This document shows positions 22,848 to 28,366 of a stretch of 41,777 nt of DNA, in pieces. A program made the translations under genes and the position numbers. The DNA lies in the NCBI GenBank assembly GCA_026398065.1, contig JAPLTR010000672.1:1-41777 (forward strand), in the 5' to 3' direction. The notes under the pieces were generated by a model. That model was given only the letters and a program-made list of their open reading frames with translations, was not told the DNA's origin and did not search any database. The stretch is from Verrucomicrobiota bacterium (GTDB taxonomy: Bacteria > Verrucomicrobiota > Verrucomicrobiia > Opitutales > Opitutaceae). How positions within the stretch are numbered: the first letter of the stretch is position 1; every line of letters starts with the position of its first letter.

Positions 22848-22889
22848 AGTCACAGAGAGCACGGAGAGGAACACAGAGGTCACGGAGCG
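22848..22889. repeat. Degenerate CACAGAG/CACGGAG repeat between prpC and prpD
   Basis: Four spaced units of the type CACAGAGAG, CACGGAGAGG, ACACAGAGG and CACGGAG follow one another. They share the vocabulary of the inverted repeat at 24151-24225 in the same operon. Confidence 0.45.
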
Positions 22890-22935
22890 GAAGCTTGGGA
22901 GGCTGGAGGCGGTGAGGGGATAGGACGACGAGCCA

Positions 22936-24150: not shown

Positions 24151-24225
24151 AACCACAGAGACACAGAGGCACAGAGAAAGACCAGGAGAGAAGGGAGTGC
24201 TCCGTGCCTCTGTGTCTCTGTGGTT
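24151..24225. repeat. 22-nt perfect inverted repeat of ACAGAG type
   Basis: The arms at 24151-24172 (starting AACCACAGAGACACAGAG) and 24204-24225 (ending TGTCTCTGTGGTT) are exact reverse complements with a 31-nt loop. Each arm is itself built of short CACAGAG-like units. It lies 18 nt upstream of the prpC start, so it is in the prp transcript leader of prpC and could fold into a strong hairpin. Confidence 0.75.
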
Positions 24226-24831: not shown

Positions 24832-25713
24832 CTAGGCTGGCGGCTGTGGAGATTTGTAGCCGAGGACATCGTAGAGGTCGGCGCGGGTCTGCATTTTGGA
24901 AACGACATTGCGCTGGGTGCCGTCGCGGCGGAGGGCGGTGTAGACGTCGAGCGAGGCGGAGGCGGCGGCGCGGCTGGCGCCGAGGGGATAGAGGACCATC
25001 GCCACGCCGGCGGTGCGGAGTTCCTCGACAGTGAAATAGGGGGTCTGGCCGAACTCGGTGAGATTCGCGAGGACGGGGACGGTGAGGGCCGCGGTGAAGG
25101 TGCGGTAGTCGTCGAGGGTGCGGAGGGCTTCGGCGAAAATCATGTCGGCCCCGGCGGCGACGTAGGCCTGGGCGCGGGCGAGGGCGGCGGGGACGCCTTC
25201 GACGGAGGCGGCGTCGGTGCGAGCCATGACGACGAAGGCGGGGTCGGGCTTGCCGGTGACGGCGGCGCGGATGCGAGCGGCCATCGCGGCGGTGGAGACG
25301 AGCTGTTTGCCGGGGAGGTGGCCGCAGAGCTTGGCCGGGACCTGGTCCTCGAGATGGACGGCGGCGACGCCGACGGCGGCGAGTTCATGGACAGCGCGGG
25401 CGGGATCGTCCCAGCCGGTGTCGATGTCGACGAGGAGGGGGAGCGGAACGCGTTGGGCGATGCGGCGGGCGTCGATCGCGACGTCGGCGAGGGTGGTGTC
25501 GCCGGTGTCGGGGATACCGTAGGAGTGGTTGGCCACGCCGGCGCCGGAGAGGTAGAGGGCGCGGAAGCCGGCGCGCTGGGCGAGGAGGGCGGCGTAGGCG
25601 TTGATGGCGCCGGCGATCTGGAGCGGACGTTCGGCGGCAAGGGCGGCGCGGAAGTGCGACCCGGGGGACGGCGCGGTGGTGCTCACAAGCGGTAGATATA
25701 GGGAAGGGGACAT
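24832..25713 (-). CDS. prpB: 2-methylisocitrate lyase
   Basis: The 293-residue product belongs to the isocitrate-lyase/PEP-mutase family. Family motifs are GAINAYAALLAQRAGFRALYLSGAG in parts, the metal site VDIDTGWDD, and the lyase signature KLCGHLPGK with catalytic Cys130, followed by VVMARTDAASVEG and GADMIFAEAL. It splits 2-methylisocitrate into succinate and pyruvate, the last step of the methylcitrate cycle. As the first gene of the minus-strand unit its promoter should lie in the 25.7-26.2 kb repeat region. The start is at ATG 25713; a GTG at 25686 is an alternative. Confidence 0.93.
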   Translation of the reverse strand: MSPSLYLPLVSTTAPSPGSHFRAALAAERPLQIAGAINAYAALLAQRAGFRALYLSGAGVANHSYGIPDTGDTTLADVAIDARRIAQRVPLPLLVDIDTGWDDPARAVHELAAVGVAAVHLEDQVPAKLCGHLPGKQLVSTAAMAARIRAAVTGKPDPAFVVMARTDAASVEGVPAALARAQAYVAAGADMIFAEALRTLDDYRTFTAALTVPVLANLTEFGQTPYFTVEELRTAGVAMVLYPLGASRAAASASLDVYTALRRDGTQRNVVSKMQTRADLYDVLGYKSPQPPA

Positions 25714-25781
25714 GGTGTCGAGGACCCTGCGTGGGCCGCGGATCGGGCCGGCGCGGGGAGCGAAGGCGCCGGGAGGAGGTT

Positions 25782-25821
25782 GGATTTGGTGCGATTTGGT
25801 CGGATGGGGTACGATCTGCCT
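25782..25821. repeat. 10-nt-period repeat, cluster 1
   Basis: Four units in exact register: GGATTTGGTG, CGATTTGGTC, GGATGGGGTA, CGATCTGCCT. The cluster lies 69 nt upstream of the prpB start. Confidence 0.7.
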
Positions 25822-25958
25822 CGAGACCTTGTCGAGCGCGACGGTGGCATGAGGTCGGTACCTACAGGAGCCAACCAACGGCGCGGCGAGGCCGGCCCCG
25901 CTTCGTGGGTGGTGAGGTGGTTGGCCGGTGGTCTGGCGGCGGCGGGTTTCATGAGGTC

Positions 25959-25988
25959 GGATCTGGTCGGATTTGGTGCGATTTACCG
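25959..25988. repeat. 10-nt-period repeat, cluster 2
   Basis: Three units in exact register: GGATCTGGTC, GGATTTGGTG, CGATTTACCG. It is preceded by the 11-mer CATGAGGTCGG, which also follows cluster 1. Confidence 0.65.
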
Positions 25989-26105
25989 CTGAGGTGGTTT
26001 TGACGGGGCGGGCTCGCCCCGAAATCGCCAACTCCGCTGAACGTCACCGGTGTCTGGCGGCGGTCGCTGGGGCGGTGGGACGGGACGGTCAGGCCGGAGG
26101 TACCT

Positions 26106-26175
26106 TGATCTACCTTGATTTGGTCGGATTTGCTTGGATTGGGTGCGATCTGGTTGGATTTGCCTGGAGACGGAC
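26106..26175. repeat. 10-nt-period repeat, cluster 3
   Basis: Seven units in exact register: TGATCTACCT, TGATTTGGTC, GGATTTGCTT, GGATTGGGTG, CGATCTGGTT, GGATTTGCCT, GGAGACGGAC. The consensus is KGATTTGGTS, with the GAT core nearly invariant and the last unit degraded. Confidence 0.7.
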
Positions 26176-26228
26176 TTTGTCGCGGGGCGGGGGTGGTGGT
26201 CGGTTGGAGGTCGGGGAAATTTCATTTT

Positions 26229-26257
26229 CCGCGATGGCGCGGATGGGCACGGATCAA
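26229..26257. repeat. 9-nt-type CGCGGAT repeat, second locus
   Basis: The units CCGCGATGG, CGCGGATGG and a diverged GCACGGATC follow each other. They resemble the tandem units at 24317-24343. Confidence 0.4.
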
Positions 26258-26761
26258 GGCAGGACGGGGCCGGCCCAAGGGCGGGCAACCCAGGCCCGTG
26301 AGATCGGACCTTTCGGCGGATCGGCTGCCCTGGGCGTGAATCCGCGTGCTTCGCGGCGTGGTTGGAGTGGGTGGGAGGTGATCGGATGCGGCGTGCGGGC
26401 GGTGGGAGAGGACGGGACTTTGTCCGGGCATGCCCCGGCTTCGGCGGCGGGGGCGCTGCCGGAGCCGAGTGAGAAGAATGGATGTTCTTCCGACCTTTTA
26501 GAACAATAATCAAGTATAAAAGTTCTTAAAAGAAACAAAATATGGGCCTTCGCCACGGTAAGGGCGGCTGCGGCTTCCGGGGGAGGGTTTATACTCAGAG
26601 GATTGGGCGAGCTTCCCGCAAATGTGCCGAGGCGGGGCGGGATGCGGGTTTTCCTGACGGGATTTGGCCGGGGTGGAGCGCCGAATCCCCTCAGGTCAGC
26701 GACTTGGGGGGCGAAGGAATTAGACGCGGCCCCGCGGTCGCATCCAATCCCTACTGACCCC

Positions 26762-28366
26762 ATGCAACTCGGAACTAAAATCATCGGGGCTGCGCTTGCG
26801 GCCGTGGCACTGACCGTGGCAGCGACACTCACGGTGCAGAAACATGTCATCGAAAAGCAGGGGGTGGAGCTCACGGTGGGCACGATGCGGGCGGCGGTGA
26901 TCGAGGCGGAGAACGTGCGCGAGAGCATCTCCTTCCTCGGAAAGAACGGGGCGTTCGACCAGAAGAAGCTGCTGGCCGACTACCGGGCGTCCGGCGACCT
27001 GCGGACCTCGACGATCTACGACACGATCCCCGTGGTGGCGGCGTGGGAGGCGATCAAGAAGGTGGCGGAGCAGGAGGGGTTCGAATTTCGCGTGCCCAAG
27101 AACCAGGCGCGCAACCCGAAGAACACCCCGACGGCGGACGAGCAGGAAATCCTCAAGGCGCTGGAGTCCGGCAAGCAGACGGAATACCTGCGGGTGGACC
27201 GCGCGGCCAACCAGATCGTGTTTGCCCGGCCGATCAAGCTGACGGCGGACTGCCTGACCTGTCATGGAGACCCGGCGACGAGCCCGACCAAGGACGGCAA
27301 GGACATGGTGGGCTTTGCGATGGAGAACTGGAAGACCGGCGAGGTGCACGGGGCCTTTGTGCTCAAGGCGGACCTGAAACGCGTGGACGCCGTGGTGCTG
27401 GCCGGGATGGTGCGCAGCGTGGCCTGGGTGGTGCCGCTGATGGTCGGCATCAGCGTGGGCTTCTATTTTCTCAACCGGCGGATGATCGTGCGGCCGCTGC
27501 TGGCCTCGATCACGAGCCTGCGGGCGGCGAGCGAGCAGACCTCGGCCGCGGCCGGGGAGATTTCCAACGCGAGCCAGGGCCTCGCGCAGGGGGCGAGCGA
27601 ACAGGCGGCCACGCTGCAGGAGACGAGCGCCTCGCTGGAGGAGATCGCGGGGATGACGCGCCGGAACTCCGACACCGCGGGCACGGCCAAGGCGCTGGCC
27701 CACGAGACGAGCGTGGCGGCGGAGAACGGGGCGCGGGGGATGCAGGACATGAACCGCGCGATGGCCGAGATCAAGACGGCGAGCGGCAACATCGCCAAGA
27801 TCCTCAAGACGATCGACGAAATCGCTTTTCAGACAAACATCCTCGCGCTCAACGCGGCGGTCGAGGCGGCCCGCGCGGGCGAGGCCGGCATGGGGTTCAG
27901 CGTGGTGGCGGAGGAAGTGCGCGCGCTGGCCCAGCGCAGTGCGGCCGCGGCGCGGGAGACGGCCGAGCGTATCGAAGATTCGATCCAGAAGAGCGCCAAC
28001 GGCGGGGAGATCTGCTCGCGGGTCGAGGTGAGCCTGCAGGAGATCGTCACCAAGGTGCGCCGCATGGACACGCTCGTGGCGGAAATCACCGCCGCGTCGG
28101 GCGAGCAGCATCAGGGCGTGGTGCAGGTGAATGACGCCATGGCGCAGCTGGACAAGGTCACGCAGGGCAACGCGGCGGGCGCCGAGGAGACCGCGAGCGC
28201 CTCGCAGGAGCTCAGCGCGCAGGCGATCGAGATGGATCGCGCTGTCCAGGACCTGCTGAGCTTGGTGGGCGGCGGCCAGGAGGCGGCCGCCGGGCGCGTT
28301 GGCAGCGTGATGCCCGTGGCCCAGCCCGACGCTTCCGAGCGGACGGTCGAGACGAGCGCGGGCTAA
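26762..28366 (+). CDS. Methyl-accepting chemotaxis protein with c-type-heme sensor domain
   Basis: The 534-residue product has TM1 (about 7-25), a periplasmic DUF3365/Tll0287-like domain (about 26-205), TM2 (about 210-237) and a cytoplasmic signalling rod. The sensor contains CLTCHGD at 164-170, a CXXCH covalent heme site, so it should sense redox state or a gas. The rod has the hairpin tip [22 protein letters not shown] in parts and [17 protein letters not shown], the kinase-CheA contact region. No obvious HAMP domain separates TM2 from the rod. No C-terminal pentapeptide for CheR is seen. The start at MQLGTKIIG directly precedes TM1. No che genes are adjacent. Confidence 0.92.

Follow-up and report, generated by a model that had tools for sequence, protein, structure and literature searches.

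A dispersed, directional repeat element of helically phased decamers in a Verrucomicrobiota genome

Introduction

ParR/parC plasmid centromeres carry clusters of about five direct repeats of about 10-11 bp, separated by spacers, with one site per replicon, adjoining the par genes. Unlike these, the decamer element that we describe here, from a bacterium of the phylum Verrucomicrobiota and probably a member of Opitutaceae, is dispersed on the chromosome and, over the 94 flanking proteins scanned, has no par neighbour pattern. Several other described systems share parts of its design. BldC of Streptomyces is described as occupying degenerate head-to-tail direct repeats one helical turn apart, in variable number; in that description one turn lies between protected tracts, the subunit sites measure 9 bp and are promoter-bound, and two sites have 2 and 4 repeats (PMC5859096). 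Phage 186 Apl, in the account of PMC7498355, uses five to seven direct repeats spaced by 10-11 bp, both at att and at promoters, and shares with other excisionases strong cooperativity and weak specificity; for RdfS one molecule per 10 bp is reported (PMC11963761). Among dispersed repeats, the TAACTGA family of Beggiatoaceae is described as 169 sets of short direct repeats, mostly intergenic and differing in abundance between species, with a period of 7 (not helical), 2-6 copies, mostly forward, upstream of start codons (PMC4679880). REP/BIME sequences are described as more than 100 interspersed extragenic composite copies with known protein-binding sites (PMC2817692).

Like the BldC operators, the arrays reported here are direct repeats one turn apart, with GAT cores spaced by 10, and the BldC unit AATTXXXX(C) given in PMC5859096 resembles GATTTGGTC. 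Unlike those operators, the element has 10-bp units, mostly four to seven together, at many loci and with no promoter geometry, and no clear HTH_17 protein was found in its own genome. With the Apl and RdfS sites it shares tandem repeats spaced by one helix turn, whereas those sites, as far as they are described, belong to a mobile element with an integrase gene and the present element has many copies, several boxes in each and no integrase that we saw. We take the likeness to BldC, Apl and RdfS to be one of putative mechanism, not of membership. The TAACTGA set, judged by what its description covers, is the nearest in the literature, but the period of our element is 10 nt and its distance from genes and orientation to them vary. 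REPs are palindromic and alternate in orientation in the account of PMC2817692, whereas decamer boxes are direct, on one strand and not palindromic, with no covarying hairpin.

Decamer arrays in the window

The window, meaning the whole 41,777-nt stretch of DNA that was analysed, is contig C454 of a 7.22-Mb MAG in 1,004 contigs (89.5% complete, 5% contaminated). Between a prpB-like gene and a divergent chemoreceptor gene it carries three decamer clusters (Table 1). A preliminary description had reported three clusters with GAT every 10 nt at these positions, and we confirmed this, far beyond what dinucleotide shuffles produce. The GAT cores start at 25783, 25793, 25803 and 25813 in cluster 1, at 25960, 25970 and 25980 in cluster 2, and at six positions from 26107 to 26157 in cluster 3, all in exact 10-nt steps. 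Of the unit counts first proposed (4, 3 and 7), the last two stood and the first became five, the extra unit being the weak GGAGGAGGTT recognized by a trained 10-column profile.

Summed over the window arrays, the profile score came to 156.8, and the best of 1,000 dinucleotide shuffles reached 47.4; similar periodic clusters in shuffled sequence of the same composition, named at the outset as an outcome that would refute the observation, were thus not obtained. The longest run of GAT at step 10 was six; a run of four arose in one of 5,000 shuffles and a longer one in none. Elsewhere in the window the profile found two weak matches alone, with scores of 14.7 and 16.0. Cluster 3 aligns without gaps, over 26100-26152, with a 53-nt ordered consensus drawn from the whole genome, and its stretch has at least 16 other BLAST matches in the same genome, at up to 92% identity.

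The window PrpB has its nearest relatives in Opitutus/Opitutae MAGs, which points to Opitutaceae as the family, and is 84% identical to an Opitutus MAG homologue. Its reading frame stays open upstream through clusters 1 and 2, as a 399-aa ORF on the minus strand (24832-26031); the start assigned by automatic annotation may be misplaced.

Table 1. Coordinates of the features in the window.
Feature	Position	Strand	Details
Decamer cluster 1	25772..25821	+	5 units, GAT cores 25783-25813, first unit degenerate; profile score 41.5
Decamer cluster 2	25959..25988	+	3 units; profile score 35.4
Decamer cluster 3	26096..26165	+	7 units; profile score 79.9
AT-rich right-end site (degenerate dyad)	26486..26543	+	downstream end of the element; alignment
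Whole intergenic element, limits approximate	25725..26740	+	sequence similarity to L042 and L043, two relatives that share the gene pair, ends by 25724 and begins again at 26737-26760
prpB-like gene (PEP mutase / isocitrate lyase superfamily)	24832..25686	-	Pfam PF13714 1.7e-42
Chemoreceptor with Tll0287-like sensor	26762..28366	+	Pfam PF00015 6.5e-43, PF11845 1.9e-24

Architecture of the element

The unit considered in the preliminary description is too small: the real unit is a larger composite element, and the three clusters of the window are one copy of a dispersed element. Beyond that description, we find a genome-wide repeat whose clusters tend to an ordered 53-nt 'sentence' within a directional element that, in the window, ends at the AT-rich site of Table 1. 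BLASTN with window positions 25700-26250 returned 103 matches in the own genome, the window included, and the pattern BGATNNRSYY three times over followed by BGAT had 314 exact matches in the MAG (169 forward, 145 reverse) and none when read backwards. In 60 stretches, 210 clusters reached a profile score of at least 18, and reversed sequence gave none. Our full sample consists of 88 own-genome stretches (the window, 59 found by array searches and 28 by the right-end dyad); it is not exhaustive and contains 296 of the 314 strict-pattern matches. At a profile score of at least 25 it yielded 85 element calls, which are spread over 84 stretches and comprise 265 clusters made up of 1,480 units. 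One of these calls, on the opposite strand inside another element in L174, is probably spurious, and for 24 of the 85 the edge of the stretch is no more than 300 bp away; loci C515 and C13, which surfaced in the TCA control alone (see below), were left out of the element count. We estimate that this MAG holds roughly 90 copies.

The element is organized at three levels. The first is the decamer, [GTC]GAT[TC][TC][GA][GC][TC][CTG] genome-wide, of which the originally proposed consensus KGATTTGGTS gives a fair picture. The core described at the outset as nearly constant is so throughout the genome (GAT at 99, 98 and 92% per column), G precedes it in 67% of units, and 449 different units occur among the 1,480 sampled. 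The 10-nt register is likewise kept in the other genomic copies, with 1,035 GAT-GAT pairs at distance 10 versus 14 at 9 and 6 at 11. The second level is a box of 3-12 decamers, with a mode of five and with four to seven in 222 of the 265 clusters. Units within a box are non-identical but ordered, the common sentence being CTACCTTGATCCACCTTGATCTGGTCGGATTTACTCGGATTTGGTCGGATTTG; 116 of the 265 clusters agree with the consensus at 38 or more of its 53 positions, and among the 207 clusters with at least five units, 89 agree at 42 or more, versus 13 after the unit order is shuffled.

At the third level, one to seven boxes (three in 34 of the 85 elements), with a median start-to-start distance of 197 bp, stand on one strand and are followed downstream, in most elements, by an AT-rich site. 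Within each of the 84 stretches that contain clusters, these share a single strand, except for the opposite call in L174. Larger monomers are tandemly duplicated inside elements, spacers are duplicated within elements and homologous between them, and the 26 longest inter-element matches show 65-86% identity over 344-557 bp. A CRISPR array was rejected on the diversity of the units and on these duplicated, homologous spacers, which also spoke against an integron-like array, rejected after comparison by eye with core-site motifs. A second unit spelling, CCTTGAAATG/CCTTGATTTG, appears in own-genome arrays on C60, C267, C387, C469, C515 and C13.

The AT-rich right-end site has a consensus close to TATAAATCAACnnTAAAGTTGATTAAAAGAACA and is frequently preceded by a stretch like TCGATCCGTGTTCATCGGTGG; the upstream side of the element has no prominent motif, the commonest 9-mer there occurring in 6 of 49. 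A sequence-only model of the site built from 37 copies (R1) matched the own genome 71 times, three of these being a site read a second time on the other strand; its match in the window, at 26491-26539 (E=1e-4), is to one of the training copies. As an independent test of the composite, we took all 28 R1 matches on contigs that had not been used before. A same-strand array lay upstream in 24 of these 28 dyad-only loci (in one, L241, there are in addition two weak calls of two units each on the opposite strand), and in three of the remaining four the site is within 300 bp of a contig end. Among the 53 element calls flanked by 900 bp on either side, a dyad was found downstream in 47 at a score of at least 15 and in 46 at 18 or more, training copies included; it is missing in six (L027, L151, L154, L159 and L171, plus the L174 artefact), and the single upstream dyad belongs to that same L174 call. 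The median distance from last box to dyad is 152 bp (66 elements). Symmetry is moderate: an inverted repeat with at least 8 of 9 arm positions occurs in 9 of 37 dyads versus 2.4% of shuffles (any arm position, gap 3-8), and the dyad is imperfect in 28 of the 37. At L267, about 950-990, a right-end dyad (TGTTCTTTTTAAGAACTTAAGTCAACATTTAAGTTGACT) stands without an adjoining decamer array.

Constraint on the GAT core

The GAT core is selectively kept. In 35 homologous pairs within elements, the GAT columns were 98, 98 and 95% identical, the last six columns of the unit 84-92% and the spacers 88%. Because boxes were called with a GAT-heavy profile, a column was counted if either copy was called, which limits the resulting bias but leaves some of it in place. 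A whole GAT was kept within elements in 597 of 632 cases in boxes (94.5%) versus 65 of 110 in spacers (59%); between elements, where pairs are not independent of one another, the counts were 4019 of 4323 versus 423 of 1244. Gap openings per kb numbered 5.3 in clusters versus 12.4 in spacers within elements, and 13.8 versus 37.0 between them. The higher retention of GAT in boxes than in spacers suggests that it is probably read by something.

Gene neighbourhoods

Gene orientations were taken from gene calls by a home-made codon score. Across 61 element groups, the neighbouring gene on the upstream side was on the same strand in 20, on the opposite strand in 29 and absent in 12, and downstream the corresponding numbers were 27, 23 and 11, so that there is no consistent promoter geometry. 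A scan of 94 of the 98 distinct flanking proteins, all from the first 60 stretches, found no Pfam family in more than two proteins (25 of 113 families listed), ABC_tran, GntR and AAA_21 being the sole families with two, and we saw no recurrence of transposase, integrase, par or cargo genes. BLASTP among up to 99 flanking proteins gave just seven rows, comprising one three-member family and one pair, on which a common neighbour gene was rejected. A replication-direction signal was rejected as well: oriented GC skew, over short flanks, was positive in 19 of 48 elements, with a mean of -0.016.

A link of the arrays to prpB, upstream of which the preliminary description had placed them, was not supported. 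In two relatives (L042 and L043) the same divergent prpB-chemoreceptor pair is separated by a spacer of under about 200 bp with no array, and other arrays flank unrelated genes in all orientations. Because the flanking genes share neither family nor orientation, prpB is incidental; we do not think it and the array functionally linked, and we rejected control of the prpB promoter on the lack of conservation at the gene pair and of promoter geometry.

Distribution among relatives

The 76-nt third cluster had no match in 56 relatives, 8 congeners among them; R1 had none in the 8 congeners at E<=0.01; and the AT site had none at E<=0.001 in 251 other family genomes, under stricter filters that find 22 instead of 71 sites in the own genome. 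A GAT repeated over five consecutive 10-nt steps is present in 20 of the 252 family genomes, one of which is the own. Congeners G004 and G005 match this loose pattern through CACGGATGAA-type words, genus g2 has the related words GATTCACCTT and GATTAGGCTT, plus GGACTGGGTG/CGACTAGGTT in L194, and others have perfect or unrelated tandem repeats or a CACGGATGAA-type element. A TCA-core control, run to gauge the bias of choosing GAT, matched 14 of 252 genomes, versus 20 for GAT; in g2, in G130 and G149 and in the own genome many of its matches belong to decamer arrays of this kind, and others, such as those in G058 and some of those in G130, are short simple repeats. Given this control and the unrelated tandem repeats, the 20 of 252 do not amount to 20 genomes with the element.

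At the level of the phylum, GAT at six 10-nt steps was found in 19 of 387 genomes, the own included. An unbiased lag scan for period 10 detected 94 segments in the 88 own stretches (chosen for arrays or dyads), none in 22 Opitutaceae-type loci and none in 56 others, indicating that this class of element is not general. G347, from another Verrucomicrobiota family and with a single-contig 5.73-Mb chromosome (C1), has 120 matches to a TCGAT decamer pattern; among the matches listed (L298-L307), nine places are on the plus strand and one on the minus, and the eight inspected are long, frequently near-perfect TCGATTGCCG- or TCGATAGCAG-type arrays. Decamer arrays thus arise elsewhere in the phylum in other spellings, and the composite element is so far confined to this species. 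The third cluster had no match in plasmids or phages and the exact pattern none in viral contigs (IMG/VR), on which mobile carriers were rejected. A literature search by word and by six repeat, relative and dyad strings, the latter over 5.39 million papers with few subscription papers among them, found no description of the element, and an Rfam search gave no match besides tRNAs, in line with the initial statement that no named element has this form.

Interpretation

The observed architecture, abundance, strict register, conserved unit order and selective GAT retention are best read, with about an even chance of being right, as a platform for a putative head-to-tail DNA-binding protein, in which several boxes and a dyad serve a chromosomal role. 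One unit per helical turn is compatible, as first suggested, with predicted cooperative binding of a repeated-module protein. Each decamer would be bound by one subunit of this putative protein, reading GAT once per helical turn; subunits would polymerise head to tail along the box; and several boxes together with the dyad might form one larger nucleoprotein structure. Three constrained bases per turn, strict phase and same-strand polarity favour a binder of duplex DNA that reads sequence and oligomerises. Since neighbouring genes share neither family nor orientation, the role would be a chromosomal one, possibly as a site that anchors or organises the chromosome, comparable to those of nucleoid-associated or centromere-binding proteins; this purpose is the least certain step. 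At phage 186 Apl sites the spacing is looser, at 10-11 bp, and duplication history could be the source of the strict 10-bp spacing seen here. Several results count against the platform. Within elements, the positions of the unit other than GAT are about as variable as the spacers; the identities of the longest inter-element matches are those that a decaying repeat family would show; five genuine full-flank elements lack a downstream dyad and one dyad lacks an array; and the 8 congeners gave no match to the third cluster or to the dyad model, nor the 251 other family genomes any to the dyad. In the own genome, a MAG 89.5% complete, a search for a BldC-type binder (Pfam HTH_17, PF12728) gave a single sub-threshold match, at C730:6593-6739 (E=8.4e-4), which makes a BldC-type protein an unlikely binder.

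A possible reading that agrees with many of the same facts is a non-autonomous mobile family, mostly decayed, whose boxes and dyad would be sites for a transposase or recombinase encoded elsewhere or lost, with no host function. The empty prpB-chemoreceptor spacer in two relatives, the many dispersed copies in one species only, the long diverged homology between copies, the conserved right end beside a left end that is not, and the absence of gene preference at the flanks all speak for it, but no near-identical long pair exists among the 26 longest matches (top identity 86% over 371 bp; assembly may lose identical copies, and the sample does not cover every element), no transposase family recurs among the 94 flanking proteins, and plasmids, phages and IMG/VR gave no match. 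We think it somewhat unlikely. The selfish short-period repeat, offered at the outset as the other option, likewise keeps some probability. A recombination site of att type, in which an Xis/RDF-like filament would form on the boxes and a tyrosine recombinase would use the AT dyad (consensus AAATCAAC-N6-GTTGATTA) as its core, would suit the excess of inverted repeats among the dyads and the head-to-tail repeats, one helix turn apart and beside the att core, that excisionases are described as binding. It is made improbable by the many copies, by an integrase-bearing version not having been seen, by the imperfect dyad in most copies and by the lack of recurrent cargo or neighbour genes.

Slippage could also have left a functionless short-period minisatellite whose 10-nt period is historical, as the near-perfect decamer arrays elsewhere in the phylum (G347, G449, G522) and the tandemly duplicated larger monomers inside elements would allow; selective GAT retention, a low indel rate, the conserved order of non-identical units and the linkage of dyad to arrays leave it little probability. 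That the array acts as RNA, either structured or as a protein sponge (for example, for GGA-binding CsrA), we hold to be very improbable. On the array strand the folds of 70 clusters are indeed a little more stable than those of shuffles (z averages -1.02, with a fraction of 0.23 under -2; the other strand has 0.21, and spacers have -0.39 and -0.35), and the right end falls below spacers on both strands (z -1.09 and -1.21, 48 sites). However, covariation is negligible in 72 clusters, with a double change in one of seven predicted pairs (-3.14 kcal/mol), GGA is not invariant, with G before GAT in 67% of units, and Rfam yielded tRNAs alone; a structured RNA family was rejected on the missing compensatory pairing pattern and this Rfam result. 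As for a local operator of prpB and/or the chemoreceptor gene, the array does sit in a divergent intergenic region, but its absence from L042 and L043, the 61 groups without consistent promoter geometry and the unrelated neighbours leave this next to no chance.

We know of no bacterial repeat family built on these three levels, in which decamers in helical register make up ordered boxes of about 60 bp, and several boxes a directional element that a dyad terminates. The platform for a head-to-tail binder has a bolder form, which we advance as speculation and consider distinctly doubtful: the roughly 90 directional sites scattered over the chromosome, each with several boxes and an AT dyad at its end, would nucleate a filament with one subunit per 10 bp and constitute a species-specific code for chromatin, anchoring or segregation, a 'dialect' that turns over between Verrucomicrobiota lineages. 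A polymerising reader protein, if there is one, would mean that a phylum which has been little studied has a binding system of chromosome scale that is new; if there is none, the repeat family is still striking for holding its helical phase. From hundreds of natural variants it can be seen that GAT is kept and which other bases are free, making a binding code directly testable.

Other short-period repeats

Several further repeats were seen in addition to the decamer arrays. In the window, short-period CACAGAG / CTCTGTG words occur at 22851-22892 and 24154-24222, inverted at the second site, and resemble a widespread class of 8-10-nt word repeats. The prpB neighbourhoods of relatives (L041-L062) contain period-7 repeats in four or five segments, depending on the threshold. 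CACGGATGAA-type decamer repeats are another word of 10-nt period in several family genomes, sometimes as inverted pairs, with sites in L009 (about 2128 and 2208), L194 (1770-1819), G005, G249 and G076. No more than 45 bp downstream of the box, 12 of the 265 own clusters (for example, in L011, L020, L023 and L189) have a hairpin-like repeat with GGGAGCGC, where about one would be expected from its density of 0.078 per kb, and the same repeat interrupts or borders arrays in the unrelated genome G347 (L298 and L304).
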